DNA of 64,000 bases from assembly GCF_014647915.1 (NCBI RefSeq), contig NZ_BMQC01000019.1, forward strand, positions 1 to 64,000, given 5' to 3'. Positions within the stretch are counted from its first letter, which is position 1; every line of letters begins with the position of its first letter. Below the pieces are notes generated by a model. That model did no database searches. It saw nothing but the letters and a program-made list of their open reading frames with translations, and was not told the origin of the DNA. Made by a program: the position numbers and the translations under genes. Shown in pieces: positions 28,784 to 41,002 of this stretch. Source of the stretch: Pilimelia terevasa. GTDB lineage: Bacteria; Actinomycetota; Actinomycetes; Mycobacteriales; Micromonosporaceae.

Positions 28784-30283
28784 GTGGCGATGTTCGTGGA
28801 CCGGGTGGTCCTGCACCTCCAGGCCGGCAACGGAGGCCACGGCTGCGTCTCCATCCACCGGGAGAAGTTCAAGCCGTTCGGCGGCCCGGACGGCGGCAAC
28901 GGCGGCCACGGCGGCGACGTGACGCTCGTCGTCGACCCCGCCGTCCACACGCTGCTGGACTTCCACTTCCGCCCGCACATCAAGGCGGACAACGGCAAGG
29001 GCGGCGCGGGTAGCAACCGCGACGGCGCCAACGGCAAGGGCCTGGTGATCAAGGTCCCGAACGGCACCGTCGTGCAGACGCCCGACGGCGAGGTGCTGGC
29101 CGACCTGGTCGGCGTCGGTACCGTCTACGAGGCGGCCAAGGGCGGGCGCGGCGGGCGGGGCAACGCCTCGCTGGCCAACGCCAAGCGCAAGGCCCCCGGC
29201 TTCGCGGAGCTGGGCGAACCCGGCGACGCCTACGACCTGGTCCTGGAACTCAAGAGCGTCGCCGACGTCGGCCTGGTGGGCTTCCCGTCGGCCGGGAAGT
29301 CCTCGCTGATCGCCGTGATCTCGGCGGCCAAGCCGAAGATCGCCGACTATCCGTTCACCACCCTCGTGCCCAACCTCGGCGTCGTCCAGGCCGGCGAGCA
29401 GACCTTCACCGTCGCCGACGTGCCCGGGCTGATCCCCGGGGCGGCCACCGGCAAGGGCCTCGGGCTGGAGTTCCTGCGGCACATCGAGCGGTGCGCGGTC
29501 CTGGTCCACGTCGTGGACACCGCCACGCTGGAGCCGGGGCGCGACCCCGTCGCCGACATCCGGGCGCTGGAGGCCGAGCTGGCCGCGTACGGCGGCCTGG
29601 CCGACCGGCCCCGCCTCGTCGTCCTCAACAAGATCGACGTACCCGACGGCCGGGACCTCGCCGAGATCGTCCGCCCGGACCTCGCCGAGTTCGGCTGGCC
29701 GGTGCACGAGATCAGCGCCGCCACCCGGGAGGGCCTGCGCGAACTGGTGTTCGCCATGGGCGCCGCCGTCCAGGCCCACCGCGAGGCGCAGCCGGTCCTC
29801 GAACCGACCCGCATCGTGCTGCGCCCGCCGGCCGTCGACGAGGCGGGGTTCCGCATCGTGGCCGCGGACGACGGCGTGTTCGAGGTGCTCGGGCAGAAGC
29901 CGCGCCGGTGGGTGCTCCAGACGAATTTCGACAACGACGAGGCGATCGGGTACCTCGCCGACCGGCTCGCCCGGCTCGGTGTGGAGGAGGCGCTGGCCAA
30001 GGCCGGTGCGACCCCCGGCTGCACGGTACGGGTCGGGCCGCGCGAGTTCGACTGGCAGCCCGCCGTCTACGCCGGTGTGGAGTACACCCCCACCTCCCGC
30101 GGGGTCGACAGCCGGTTGGACGAGTTGGACCCGCGCGAGTCGGCCGCCCAGCGGCTCGCCGCCCGCAAGGCCCGCCGCCGGCCCTTCGAGGAGCAGCAGG
30201 CGGCCGCCGTCGACGCGACGCCCGCCACCGGGGCACCGGCGACGGTCGGGTCACCCGAGTCGGGCGGCGACGCCGCCGGCTGA
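28784..30283 (+). CDS. obgE: GTPase Obg
   Basis: A ribosome-associated GTPase linked to 50S assembly and growth control. The Gly-rich Obg domain (about residues 3-160) is followed by the G domain with Walker [10 protein letters not shown] (near 166), DVPGLI and NKID. An OCT domain (about 345-430) precedes a variable charged tail, giving 499 residues. GTG at 28784 with AAAGGGG 8 nt upstream; an ATG two codons later is also possible. proB does not follow, unlike in many actinomycetes. The last 217 bp overlap the convergent lipoprotein frame. Confidence 0.95.
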
Positions 30284-31629
30284 GGCCCCGTCGCCGCCGG
30301 TGCGGCGGTCCGCCACAGGTGGGTCGTGGTGCCGTCGTCGGCGGTCAGCACGAGGCCGCGGGCGTCCGCGGCCAGGTCCGCCGTACAGCCCGCGCAGGCG
30401 GCGGCCGCCTCCGGCGGCAGGGCCACCTCGGCCCAGCGCACCCCGCCGTCCCCCGACCGCCACAGCCGGCGGGTGCCGTCGGCGCCGACCAGCGCGTACA
30501 GGCCGTCGTCGGTGGCCGCCGCCGCGGCGACCGACGACGCGGCCCCGCCGCCGAACCGGCCCAGCGGCGTCACCGCGCCGTCGGCCACGCGCCAACTGAC
30601 ATGACCCCGCTGCGCCGTGCCGACGCCCACCGCGCCGTCGGCGACGGGCAGCAGGCGGTCCACCGTGCCGCGGGCACGGGCGGGAACGGCCAGGGCGGTC
30701 CACGTGGCGCCGTCCGGCGAGGACCAGGCCAGCGGTGTCTGCGGTGCGTCCGCCGCGGCGCCTGCCAGGAGCCAGCCGGCGGGCGTGGCGGCGCCGTCCG
30801 AGGCCCACGCCCGCCGCCGGGCGTCGTGGGCCAGCGCCCCGCCGCCGCGCAGCGTGAAGGCGGCGCCGTCGGCCGAGGTCCAGGCCGCGCCGCCGGTGAC
30901 CCGGTTGCCGGTGAGCAGCCAGCCGCGCGGGCCGGCGGCCACCCGGGCCACGTTCACGGCGTCGGCGCCGCCGAACAGCGTGTACGCGTCGGGCGCCTCC
31001 ACCAGCCCGGGCGGCGCGGGTACCGCCGGGCGCGGCGTCGCCGGCCGGCTCGCGGGCCGGCCGGACCAGGTGCTCGTCCGCGGGTACCCGTGCGCGCCGC
31101 CGGGCGCCGCACCCAGCGCGACGAGCGCCGGCCCCCGGCACGCCAGCGCGTACAGCGTGTGCTCCGGCCCGTACGGTGACCGCGGCCGCAGGGGCACCAG
31201 CCGCCACGCCGCGGCGTCGGCGCTCACCCAGAGGGCCGGTCCGGCGCGGCCGGCGGGACCGCGCGCCCCACCGGCGGCGAACCACGTGCCCGCGCACTGC
31301 GCCAGCGCGCGCACCACGGGGCGGCCGCCCGAGGGCGCGTCGGGCAGCGTGACGGCCGTCCAGGCCAGGGCGGCCGGCGGCGCGGAGGGGTGCGGCGGCC
31401 CGCCTCCGGTGCAGCCCGCGAGCAGCAGCGCGAGCACCGCCGCGACGGCCGCGGCGGACACCGCCGGCCGCGGTGTCGCGGGCGGCGCCGGGCCCGCCAC
31501 AGCTCTCGCCGGTGTGGGGTCCGTCGCGACTCGCGCGCGCACGGCCGCCGGCGCCCGCGGTCCCCACCCCGGCGTCGGCGCGGCCGGGGGCGCGGCCGTC
31601 CGCGCGCGTCGCTGCCGCCCACCTGTCAT
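30067..31629 (-). CDS. Secreted lipoprotein with Asp-box (BNR-like) repeats
   Basis: An open frame of 520 residues. The hydrophobic segment [15 protein letters not shown] (Cys near residue 77) looks like a lipoprotein signal but is preceded by an unusually long basic N-terminus, so the true start may be further in. The mature part has four or more S-x-D-x-x-x-W blocks ([29 protein letters not shown]), typical of a beta-propeller. The frame has no stop before 30067, so its last roughly 72 residues are read from DNA that also encodes the obgE C-terminus on the other strand. The real protein probably ends at the propeller and the tail may be junk. Function unknown. Confidence 0.6.
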
Positions 31630-35483: not shown

Positions 35484-36359
35484 GTGCCCGCGACCTCGTA
35501 CCCACCCGGCCCGCCGTCCCGCCCGCGACGGCCGTGGCCGGTGTCCGACGACGACCTGTACCGCCCGCCGGGCGGCGCCGCCGCCGACGACCCCGACCCG
35601 TGGCCGGACCCCCCGCCGACCGTCCCGGACGTGCCGCGGACCTTCGGCGCGACCGCGTTCGACCGACCCAGCGGCTGGCTCCTGGACCCGGGCCGGCGCG
35701 GTCTGCGCGCGCTGGCCGTCGTCGCCGTGATCGTGGTGGTGATCGCCGCCGCGGCCGCGTGGTGGAGCCGCCCGCGGGTCGACCCGGTCCCGGAGCCGGC
35801 GGAGAGCGGCCTGGTCGCCAGCGTCCCCGCCGGCCGGCCGGCGGCCGACGCTACCGGAGCCCCGCCCGCGGACGGGGCCGCCCCCGGCAGCGCCGGGCCG
35901 CCCGGCGGCGCGGCCGCCGAGGTCGTGGTGTCGGTCGGCGGCCGGGTCCGCCGGCCGGGCCTGGTCCGGCTGCCCGCGGGGGCGCGCGTCGCCGACGCGG
36001 TGGCCGCGGCCGGCGGCGTGCTTGCCGGCGCCGCCACGCCCTACCTCAACCTGGCCCGCCGTGTCGTCGACGGCGAACTGATCCTCGTGGGCGTGACGCC
36101 CCCGCCGGGCGGCATCCCGGGCGCCGCGCCGGCCGCCGGGTCCGGAGCCGGGCCGGCGGCGCCGGCCGGCCGGGTCAACCTGAACACCGCGACCGTCGCC
36201 CAGTTCGACACGCTGCCCGGCGTCGGTCCGGTCCTGGCGGCGCGGCTGGTCGAGTTCCGCGAACGCAACGGGGGCTTCCGGGCCGTCGCCGACCTGCGCC
36301 GGGTCGACGGTATCGGGAGCACGCGCTACGAGCGCCTCAAGGACCTGGTGGCGCTGTGA
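35484..36359 (+). CDS. comEA: ComEA-type DNA-binding protein
   Basis: A 291-residue membrane-anchored protein. A cytoplasmic Pro-rich N-terminus is followed by one transmembrane segment (about residues 76-93), an SLBB domain (VVSVGGRVRRPGLVRLPAGARVADAV, about 147-200) and a C-terminal double helix-hairpin-helix (VNLNTATVAQFDTLPGVGPVLA ... GIGSTRYERLK). In competence systems ComEA binds incoming DNA outside the membrane. GTG start, probably leaderless, and coupled to comEC by a GTGA overlap. Confidence 0.9.
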   Translation: MPATSYPPGPPSRPRRPWPVSDDDLYRPPGGAAADDPDPWPDPPPTVPDVPRTFGATAFDRPSGWLLDPGRRGLRALAVVAVIVVVIAAAAAWWSRPRVDPVPEPAESGLVASVPAGRPAADATGAPPADGAAPGSAGPPGGAAAEVVVSVGGRVRRPGLVRLPAGARVADAVAAAGGVLAGAATPYLNLARRVVDGELILVGVTPPPGGIPGAAPAAGSGAGPAAPAGRVNLNTATVAQFDTLPGVGPVLAARLVEFRERNGGFRAVADLRRVDGIGSTRYERLKDLVAL

Positions 36360-38850
36360 GCGCGGCCCGGGCCGTCGACCTGCGGCTCGCGGCGGCGGCC
36401 CTCGGCGTGTGGCTCGGCGCCGCCGCCGCCCTGTGGCTGCGGGCGGGCGTCGCGGCCGCCGCGGGCGGGGTGGCCGCGGCCGCGGCGCTGCTGCTGGCCC
36501 GGCGCGCGGCGTGCGCGCGGACCGCGGGCGCGCCGCCTCCGCCCTCCCGCCGCCGGGCCGGTCGGTGGAGCCGCTGCGTCGCCGCAGCGGCCCGGCGGTG
36601 CGGGTGGGCGGTGCTGGCCGCGGTCGCCGGAGGGCTGGCGGTGGGTGCGGCGGTCACCGCGCTGCGGGTGGCCGAGCGCGACGCCGCGCCGGTGCGGGAG
36701 GCGGTGGCGGCGGGCTGGCGGAGCGAGGTCGCCCTGACGGTCACCGACGACCCGCGACCGGTGGGCGGCGGCGCGGGGCCGGCGACGTACCTGGTGCCGG
36801 CCCGGCTGACCGCCACCCGGTCGCCGACCGGTGCCGTGCTCCGGTCCGACGTGCAGGTCGTCGTGCTGGGGCGGCACGTCGGCTGGCGGAACCTGCTGCC
36901 CGGCCAGCGGGTCGCGGCCGCGGTGCGGTTCGGCGCCGCGCGCCCCGGGGACCTGACCGCGGCGGCGGTCAGCGCCGCCGACGCTCCGCTGCCGCGGGGC
37001 CGACCGCCCTGGGTACAGCGAGCGGCCGGCGGCCTGCGCGCGGGCCTGGCGACGGCGTGCCGCCACCTGCCGCCGGAGCCCGGCGGGCTGCTCCCCGGGC
37101 TCGTTCTGGGCGACACCTCCCGCCTGCCGGCGGCCGTCGCGGCCGACTTCCGCACCACCGGGATGACCCACCTCGTCGCCGTGTCGGGCAGCAACGTGGC
37201 GATCGTGCTCGGCGCCGTGCTGCTGGCGGGCCGGTGGTCCCGGGCCGGACCGCGGTGGTGCGGCGCGGCGTGCCTCGTCGCGCTCGTCGGTTTCGTGGTT
37301 CTCGTCCGGCCCTCGCCGAGCGTCCTGCGGGCGGCCGCGATGGGGGCGGTCGGCCTGGTGGCGCTGGTCGGCGGCCGGCGCAAGGTCGCGGCACCGGCGC
37401 TGTGCGCGACGGTGATCGCCCTGGTCGTCCACGACCCCGCCCTGGCCGGTGAACCGGGCTTCGTGCTGTCGGTCGTGGCCACCGCCGCCCTGATCCTCGT
37501 GGCGCCGCGCTGGCGGGACGCACTGCGCGCGCGGGGCGTACCGGCGGGCCTCGCCGAGGCACTGTGCGTTCCGGCGGCGGCGCAGGTGGCCTGCGGACCG
37601 GTGGTGGCGGCGCTGTCCGGCACGGTGAGTCCGGTGGCGGTGGCGGCCAATCTCCTCGCGGCCCCGGCGGTCGCCCCGGCAACCGTCCTGGGCGTCGGCG
37701 CGACGGTCGTGGCGCCGTGGGCGCCGCCGCTCGGCGACCTGCTCGTGGCGGTCGCCCGCTGGCCGGCCGAGTGGCTGGTGGCCGTTGCGCACGTCGGGGC
37801 GCAGGTGCCGGGTGCGGTGCTGCCGTGGCCGGCCGGTGTCACCGGCGCCGCCCTGTTGGCCGTCGTGACGGGCGGGCTGCTCTGCGCGGGTCGCCGGCAG
37901 GCGGTGCGGCGGGTCGTCGCGGTAGCGGCGGCCGCGGGCGTCGTGGGGGCGCTTCCCGTCCGGCTCGTCGCCGCCGGCTGGCCGCCGCCGGGCTGGGTGG
38001 CGGTGGCGTGCGACGTGGGCCAGGGCGACGCCGTCGTCCTGCCGGCCGGCGGCGCCGACGCCGTGGTCGTCGACGCGGGGCCGGAGCCGGCGGCGGTCGA
38101 CCGCTGCCTCACCGCGCTGGGGGTGCGCCGCGTGCGGCTGCTGGTCCTCAGCCACTTCCACCTCGACCACGTCGCGGGGGTGCCCGGCGTGGCCCGCGGC
38201 CGGATGATCGACACCGTCGTCGCCCCCGCCGTCGCCGGGGACATGGCCGGCGGACGCCTGCCGGCGACCGTCCGCGCGGCGCTGCCCGGCCCGCCGCGCG
38301 TGCCGGGGCCGGGGTGGACCTTCAGGGCCGGCCCGGCGCGGCTGACCGCCCTCGGCCCGGCCACCCCGCTGCGCGGCACCCGGTCGGACGCCAACAACAA
38401 CTCGCTGGTCGTCGTCGCGCAGGTGCGCGGGGTGTCGGTCCTGCTCACCGGTGACGCCGAGGTGGAACGCCAGCAGGAGCTGCTCGCCGCCCCCGGGTCG
38501 GTCCGCGCGCAGGTCCTGAAGGTCGCCCACCACGGCAGCGCCTACCAGGAGCCCGGCTTCCTCGACGCGGTCCGCCCCACGGTCGCGTTGATCTCGGCGG
38601 GCCGCGGCAACCGGTACGGGCACCCCCACCCGTCCGTCGTCGGCCAGCTCCGGCGCGCGGGCGTGCGGGTCCTGCGCACCGACGTGGACGGTGACGTCGC
38701 CGTCGCCGTCGGGGCCGGGGGGCTGGCGGCGGCCGTGCGCGGCCCGGCCCCGGGTACCCGTCGGCGCGCCGGGCGCCGGCGCCCGGCACCACCCCGGCGG
38801 TGTACGGCGGAGGGCGGCCCGGGCGTCTCCGTGCGACGATGGCGGGGTGA
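36356..38850 (+). CDS. comEC: ComEC/Rec2 family membrane protein, frame lacks its own stop
   Basis: The N-terminal membrane part has the ComEC core (TTGMTHLVAVSGSNVAIVL near residue 265; RPSPSVLRAAAMGAVGLVAL). The C-terminal metallo-beta-lactamase domain has DVGQGDA, LSHFHLDHVAG, LLTGDAE and KVAHHGS, and ends near 38740. DNA uptake channel function is inferred. No in-frame stop occurs after this domain: the GTG frame from 36356 stays open through all of holA, in a different frame, and joins the next gene's frame to a stop at 41002. A single-base indel between about 38740 and 38848 would end it at the TGA 38848-38850 with a GTGA overlap to holA, so that end is given here. Confidence 0.7.
38835..38840 (+). 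promoter_or_regulatory. -10-like element for leaderless transcription of holA
   Basis: GACGAT ends 6 nt before the GTG at 38847. It lies inside the extended comEC frame. Confidence 0.35.
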
Positions 38851-39818
38851 CCCCCACCGTCCCGCCCCCGCTGCTGCTCGTCCTCGGCGACGAGGAACTG
38901 CTCGTGGGTCGGGCGATCCAGGCCGCCAAGGCGTCCAACCCGGGCGGCGACATCGCCGAGTACGAGGCCGGCGCGCTCGACGCGGGGGCGGTGGCCGAGA
39001 TGCTGAGCCCGTCCCTGTTCGGCGGCCGGCGGGTGGTCATCGTGCGGGCCGGCCAGGACGCCCGCAAGGACCTGGCTGCCGCCCTGCTCGCGTACGCCGC
39101 CGCTCCCGACCCCGAGATCAGCCTCGTCGTGGCGCACGCGGGCGGCGCCAAGGGCAAGGCGCTCGCCGAGGGCCTGCGCGCGGCCGGCGCGACGGTGGTA
39201 CCGGCGGCGAAGGTCACCAGACACCGCGACCGGGTGGACTTCGTCCGCGACGAGGTGCACCGCTGCGGGGGCCAGATCACTGCCGACGGTGTGGAGGCGC
39301 TGGTGGAGGCGGTCGGCAACGACCTGCGGGAGTTGTCCGCCGCCTGCTCCCAGCTCGTCGCCGACGTCACCGGCCGGATCGACGCGCAGACCGTGGCCCG
39401 GTACCACCGCGGTCGGGCCGAGGTCAGCGGGTTCACGGTGGCGGACGCGGCCGTGGTCGGCGACCTGCCCGCGGCGTTGGTGGCCCTGCGCTGGGCGCTG
39501 ACGGTCGGGGTGGACCCGGTGCCGATCGCCGACGCGCTGGCCGACGGCGTCCGCACCGTCGGCCGGGTGGCCGGCGGGCGCGGCAGCGCCCACCAGCTCG
39601 CGAGTACCCTCGGCCTGCCTCCGTGGAAGGTCGAGCGCGCGCAGCGGCAGGCCCGGGGCTGGACCCCCGAGGGCATCGTCGCGGCCATGCGCGCGGCCGC
39701 CGACTGCAACGCCGCCGTCAAGGGCGGCGCCGAGGACCGGGCCTACGCGCTGGAGCGGGCGCTGACGACCATCGTCGCGGCCCGCCGCGCCGAGGCCCCG
39801 GCAGCAAGCCGACGCTGA
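38847..39818 (+). CDS. holA: DNA polymerase III delta subunit
   Basis: The clamp-loader delta subunit opens the beta clamp. The 323 residues match the family: VLGDEELLVGRAIQA at the start, SLFGGRRVVIV, AVGNDLRELSAACSQL and a C-terminal helical region ending in a basic tail (DRAYALERALTTIVAARR). GTG start, no clear ribosome-binding site. It overlaps the next gene by 1 nt (TGATG). The comEC frame runs through it in the +2 frame. Confidence 0.9.
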   Translation: MTPTVPPPLLLVLGDEELLVGRAIQAAKASNPGGDIAEYEAGALDAGAVAEMLSPSLFGGRRVVIVRAGQDARKDLAAALLAYAAAPDPEISLVVAHAGGAKGKALAEGLRAAGATVVPAAKVTRHRDRVDFVRDEVHRCGGQITADGVEALVEAVGNDLRELSAACSQLVADVTGRIDAQTVARYHRGRAEVSGFTVADAAVVGDLPAALVALRWALTVGVDPVPIADALADGVRTVGRVAGGRGSAHQLASTLGLPPWKVERAQRQARGWTPEGIVAAMRAAADCNAAVKGGAEDRAYALERALTTIVAARRAEAPAASRR

Positions 39819-41002
39819 TGGCGGCCTTCCGGAAGTACCTCGACCCACGCCGTCGCCACCACACGTGGTACACCCGCCTGCTGCGGCTCCGCCACCTGCA
39901 CCTCACCGGCATCCGGGGCCTCCTGCTCGGCGAGGGGTCGGTTCTCGCGGCCCTGCTGCTCGCGTTCGCGGAGATCGCGCCCTGGTGGGGCGCCGCGATC
40001 CTGCCGCTGGCGGTGGCGGGCGTGGTCAAGTGGAACGACCAGCTCGCCGGTGCCCTGCCGGCCGCCGGTCCGGCCGCGGCGCGCCCCGGCCCCGTGGCGC
40101 GCGCCACCACCGGCCGCGGCGCCGGCCCCCGCGGCGGCACCGGCTCCCCGCGAGTTCCCGTCCCCGCAGGGGCAGCCTTCCGGCCTGCTCGGCCCACCGG
40201 TGGGACGGCGACGCCCCGCCGAGGTCCCGCGGCGCCGTGGCCCGCGGCGGTGGCCGGCCGGACGGTGCCCACTGCCGCACCCGCAGGCAGCGACGCCTGC
40301 GTGCCCGCTGCCAGGCAGGCGGGTGTGGATCCCGCGCAGCACGACGTTCGCGGCCCCCTGGTGCCCTACCCCCTCGACCCGAGCGGCGAGCTGCCCGGTT
40401 CCCGGTCGGAAGCGCCCGCACGGCGCCGCGGCCGTCGGTACCGCTCCGGTGCGTCGGCCCCGTCCCGGCAGGAGGCGTCCGACTCCGACGCGTTGTGGCA
40501 GGAGGCGGCCGGTGCGGCCGCGGGTACGGGCACCGGCACGTCGGCGCACAGCCGGCACAGCAGCCACGGCCGGCCCGGAGGACGGCACGCCGCCGTCAGC
40601 ACCGCAGCACCGGCTGCCGAGTCGGACGCCGGCGGCGGCCACCCGGTTGGGCTCGCCGGACCGGGCACCGCCACTGGCGAACGCGACGCCGGGACAAACC
40701 CCTACGTGACGCCGCCAGCGAACCCCGCCACCGGCGCGAGCGGAACAACCAGCGCAAACAGGACGACCAGCGGGAGCAGGACGACCAGCGGAGCCAGCAC
40801 GATCGGCGAAGGTGCGACAGGCGCGGACCGACCGCCCGGCCAGGATCCGTCCACGAGCCTGGAGAGAGCGGCGTACCGGGACGGGGCAGCCAGCCGGCAG
40901 GCGGCGCAGCGGATCGTCGGACAGCGCCCGGTCCCCGACGCCGAGCAGGCGGCGCACTCCGGCTGGCGCGCTCGCCAGTCGGCCGCCCACTACTACGACT
41001 GA
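39818..41002 (+). CDS. Membrane protein with a long disordered tail
   Basis: A 394-residue protein. It begins MAAFRKYLDPRRRHHTWYTRLLRLRHLHLTG..., a very basic stretch, then has two hydrophobic segments (VLAALLLAFAEIAPWWG and AAILPLAVAGVVKW). About 310 residues rich in Pro, Ala, Gly, Ser and Thr follow, with SGTTSANRTTSGSRTTSG-type repeats. The last 30 residues are charged. Its start overlaps the holA stop by 1 nt, and it shares the reading frame of comEC. I do not recognise a family. Confidence 0.6.
   Translation: MAAFRKYLDPRRRHHTWYTRLLRLRHLHLTGIRGLLLGEGSVLAALLLAFAEIAPWWGAAILPLAVAGVVKWNDQLAGALPAAGPAAARPGPVARATTGRGAGPRGGTGSPRVPVPAGAAFRPARPTGGTATPRRGPAAPWPAAVAGRTVPTAAPAGSDACVPAARQAGVDPAQHDVRGPLVPYPLDPSGELPGSRSEAPARRRGRRYRSGASAPSRQEASDSDALWQEAAGAAAGTGTGTSAHSRHSSHGRPGGRHAAVSTAAPAAESDAGGGHPVGLAGPGTATGERDAGTNPYVTPPANPATGASGTTSANRTTSGSRTTSGASTIGEGATGADRPPGQDPSTSLERAAYRDGAASRQAAQRIVGQRPVPDAEQAAHSGWRARQSAAHYYD

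Follow-up and report, generated by a model that had tools for sequence, protein, structure and literature searches.

A comEC reading frame without its usual near stop runs through holA into the next gene in Pilimelia terevasa

Introduction

ComEC/Rec2 proteins are described by the model TIGR00361 and by the Pfam pair Competence and Lactamase_B. The comEC locus studied here shows the same comEA-comEC gene order, the metallo-beta-lactamase motif and a match that reaches the end of the model; it differs in that no stop codon closely follows the conserved end and in that it scores under the curated cut-off. In the portions of PMC3887535 and PMC2542354 drawn on here, unidirectional overlapping genes arise when the upstream gene loses its stop codon and its 3' end comes to extend into the gene that follows in the same orientation, base composition being sufficient to explain this. 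As set against those portions, comEC is likewise elongated 3' into its same-strand neighbour, whereas the overlap here spans the whole of holA and enters the gene that follows. Leaderless genes, which are common in Actinobacteria, carry a -10 signal about 12 bases before the start codon according to the part of PMC3160421 used in this study. The holA gene at this locus has a motif of the -10 type near its start, and the last six bases of that motif start 12 bases 5' of the GTG; they read GACGAT, however, and not the TANNNT of that source. A literature search for a link between comEC and holA in Actinobacteria found none.

Materials and methods

The window is the whole stretch of DNA that was analysed, 64,000 nucleotides of contig NZ_BMQC01000019.1 from Pilimelia terevasa (Micromonosporaceae). 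For comparison, 41 genomes of the family, including that of the window, were used and holA was obtained from 39 of these. Another 40 stretches from a search of 200 family genomes and 7 of 14 further loci were added, giving 85 loci, or 82 after deduplication. The comparison set consists of the 69 loci with comEC on the same strand as holA and no more than 700 bases 5' of it. Sampling is uneven, with many rows from some genera, and counts out of 69 are therefore not independent. The other 13 loci were set aside, 6 of them with 880-3378 bases between comEC and holA. The codon score was trained on comEC, holA and lepA, so that comEC and holA were scored with their own training data. The motif upstream of holA was searched as TG[CG][GC]ANNAT, 5-8 bases 5' of an in-frame holA start codon, a pattern chosen after these sequences had been viewed.

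Results

The comEA gene (35484-36359, + strand) encodes SLBB and helix-hairpin-helix domains (Pfam HHH_3, E-value 3.6e-17; SLBB, 1.6e-10), and its TGA overlaps the start of comEC in a GTGA at 36356-36359. This is one of six junctions with 4-bp overlaps elsewhere in the window, a usage which the initial annotation had described correctly. The comEC frame itself is open from GTG 36356 to TGA 41000-41002, with no stop between and a length of 1548 residues. The same frame is stop-free even 5' of that GTG, from 35474, crossing comEA, whose own reading frame is a different one. The DNA polymerase III subunit delta gene holA (38847-39818, + strand; TIGR01128, 3e-44; NF005918, 1.8e-102; Pfam DNA_pol3_delta_C, 1.5e-06), running from GTG 38847 to TGA 39816-39818, lies entirely within this open frame and is read in a different one, and the gene starting at ATG 39818 shares one common frame with comEC. 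The third frame contains a TGA at 38848-38850. The initial annotation was borne out by the sequence as to the open frame from 36356 to 41002, the different frame of holA within it, the shared frame of the next gene and the third-frame TGA. The upstream frame thus runs beyond the usual end of comEC into the next gene, as in overlaps made by stop loss. It extends for 758 codons past the conserved end, 394 of which are the downstream gene's own frame, and the local G+C content of the stretch is 76-84%.

The conserved coding part of comEC was placed at 36356-38755 (+ strand) from the TIGR00361 match, tblastn comparison with relatives, comparison of tails and coding signature. The protein contains a Competence domain (PF03772, 3.2e-48, 164.9 bits against a cut-off of 23) and a C-terminal metallo-beta-lactamase domain (PF00753, 1.1e-10, 42.3 bits against 22.7), with SHFHLDH present in the translation. 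TIGR00361 is matched to its last model position, 663, at residue 779 (E-value 5.7e-48); the score of 163.5 bits is below the curated equivalog cut-off of 190.05, the 1548-residue frame having been scanned and no relative having been scored as a yardstick. Homology in frame reaches approximately residue 779-790, and the tblastn matches to relatives extend to residue 790, which is the end of the query. Past residue 790 the ComEC tails of the relatives resemble that of the window for some further residues, as judged by eye. In coordinates, the model match ends at 38692, the alignable part at about 38725, and the coding end of comEC was placed at about 38755. Base composition by codon position follows the comEC frame to about 38740, the holA frame from about 38840 and again the comEC frame from about 39818. 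The codon score is +0.46 log2 units per codon in comEC and falls to -1.20 where the comEC frame crosses holA, the coding signature being lost there. From 38756 to 39817 the comEC frame would encode 354 residues with 31% arginine. The best reading of these features is that comEC is an ordinary ComEC gene, predicted by homology to act in DNA uptake, whose usual stop is missing.

In the relatives, the comEC stop lies at most 25 codons past the conserved end in 63 of 69 loci and at 5-19 codons in 62, with a median of 12, and comEC ends upstream of holA in 64 of 69. The near stop is absent in the remaining six, with tails of 30-158 codons: in L106 comEC ends just 5' of holA, in L062, L083 and L135 its stop is the TGA within the start of holA, and in L077 and L131 it ends inside holA, out of frame. 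L131 represents another species in which comEC is read beyond its usual end, with a tail of 158 codons that stops after entering holA out of frame; the holA start used for this locus lies downstream of the likely true start, which leaves its class unaffected. Two of the six assemblies consist of one contig and one of three contigs. A comEC frame running all the way through holA was found in none of the 69 relatives. A search for a second genome of the window's genus found none, and the best DNA matches in the draw of 200 family genomes were 74% identical over the whole query and up to 78% over the holA part; matches this distant do not reveal the ancestral state of the stop.

The spacer between comEC and holA (38756-38846, + strand) is the site of the comEC stop in most relatives, and it looks non-coding in all three frames. 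Over 38755-38846 (92 bp) the codon scores are -0.68 per codon in the comEC frame, -0.32 in the holA frame and -0.33 in the third frame. The distance from the conserved end of comEC to holA is 121 bp, inside the range of the relatives. Within the spacer, at 38768-38787, a palindrome scan identified a perfect G+C palindrome of 20 bp, which may form a hairpin; folding of 38700-38850 (151 bases) against shuffled sequences did not reveal an unusually stable one (z -0.02).

Six bases before the GTG of holA lies the motif TGCGACGAT (38832-38840, + strand), a putative -10 region. The search pattern was found at the spacing of 5-8 bases in 61 of 69 relatives, as compared with 40 of 17048 background 54-mers, for which the start codon could be in any frame. 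In the explanation favoured here, holA is read separately, beginning at its own start, probably from a promoter of the leaderless type. As an observation on the family, the occurrence of the motif in 61 of 69 relatives suggests a leaderless holA transcript family-wide. The holA start has the form xTGA in 44 of 69 relatives and serves as the comEC stop in only 3; since such starts are common, TGA 38848 is most simply taken as part of the holA start and not as a comEC stop.

The extent to which chance explains the open frame was estimated in several ways. Synonymous shuffling of codons within holA preserved an open comEC frame in 21.7% of 20,000 draws; with holA recoded from the codon usage of neighbouring genes, the figure was 33.3%. 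A holA stop-free in the comEC phase was seen in 3 of 46 rows (45 distinct, window included). Among the 23 relatives with comEC in the window's phase to holA, there are 5 in which no stop interrupts that phase over holA and the frame is closed only by a stop 5' of the gene. A hypothetical stop loss in 56 called genes of the window, from a caller which did not list comEC and some of whose calls may be wrong, gave an extension of at least 300 codons in 12 genes and of at least 700 in one, with a maximum of 719. The 758-codon extension of comEC exceeds all 56, because the next gene happens to lie in the same phase.

The downstream gene in the frame of comEC (39818-41002, + strand) opens with about 80 conserved residues at its N-terminus; the long remainder, some 300 residues, has a weak coding signature. 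Its first 90 residues gave tblastn matches 3' of holA in 69 loci, and searches of Pfam and NCBIfam with the gene gave no match. It shares one frame with comEC in 22 of the 62 relatives that could be scored, which is about the chance rate of one in three.

Elsewhere in the window, the Obg GTPase gene (28784-30283, + strand), which encodes 499 residues and has its last domain ending at residue 424, overlaps a called antisense frame (30067-31461, - strand) tail to tail by 217 bases. The antisense frame has no Pfam match; either the tail of Obg is long or the call of the antisense frame is doubtful.

Discussion

The explanation that we regard as probable is a natural loss of the usual comEC stop, the length of the resulting frame being due to base composition and to a chance drift through holA. 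According to this explanation, the coding part of comEC would end at about 38755 and the stop that most relatives have shortly after the conserved end would have been lost in the organism itself. At 76-84% G+C the spacer and the out-of-phase holA happen to be free of stops, and the frame drifts across holA and then drops into that of the downstream gene, closing at 41002. The extension would in that case carry no selected function. Several points weigh against a natural loss: the near stop is kept by most relatives (63 of 69) and its absence is unusual, the extension of 758 codons surpasses every one of the 56 hypothetical extensions in the window, the best DNA matches are too distant (74-78% identity) to show the ancestral state, and a faulty assembly of the spacer would look identical.

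Such a sequencing or assembly error, concealing a normal comEC stop in the spacer so that the gene in the living cell is ordinary, is a possible explanation, clearly less likely than natural loss. The draft state of the assembly (42 contigs), the perfect G+C palindrome at the place where the stop is expected and the near stop in most relatives are all in keeping with it. On the other hand, the spacer length is within the range of the relatives and the motif of holA is intact. Moreover, the near stop is missing from six of the 69 relatives as well, and three of these six come from assemblies of 1-3 contigs; hence no error is needed to account for its absence.

The initial annotation had considered the simplest cause to be an indel of one base, placed somewhere from 38740 to 38848, with the true end of comEC in the third frame at a GTGA overlap with holA. 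We consider this improbable. Loss of the stop by substitution fits the same facts. The third-frame TGA does exist at 38848, L062, L083 and L135 end comEC exactly there, and overlaps of 4 bp, such as that of comEA and comEC, are used at other junctions; yet 66 of 69 relatives end comEC elsewhere, 62 of them at 5-19 codons, and in 61 of the 69 the promoter-like motif sits in the last 15 bases before holA, between the two genes. The third frame does score above the comEC frame in the spacer, which is a small point in favour of the indel, but it looks non-coding and is no better than the holA frame. What may be retained from the earlier proposal is an error of sequence in general, with the probability given above; the particular indel that restores the GTGA overlap is disfavoured.

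If the sequence is right, ribosomes starting at comEC would meet no stop before 41000. Even so, it is doubtful that a lasting ComEC of 1548 residues is made, in which the arginine-rich stretch of 354 residues is dual-coded with all of holA and joined to the next protein; if it were, extreme G+C content would have made one lost stop enough for a fusion spanning three genes. A real, selected fusion that joins ComEC to the downstream protein and makes holA dual-coded is hardly credible in spite of the stop-free frame, as none of the 69 relatives has it, the arginine-rich segment over holA lacks a coding signature and the downstream gene falls in the frame of comEC at the chance rate. A conserved fusion was rejected on the first two of these grounds, in agreement with the initial annotation.

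The locus is mainly a cautionary case for annotation. At 76-84% G+C, chance alone is expected to give long open frames that cross adjacent genes; annotation which simply follows the frame therefore yields a ComEC of 1548 residues that is probably no functional unit. Shorter versions of the same read-on from comEC are present in six of the 69 relatives. If the spacer sequence is true, this locus would illustrate clearly, in nature, that extreme G+C content lengthens the consequence of one stop loss.
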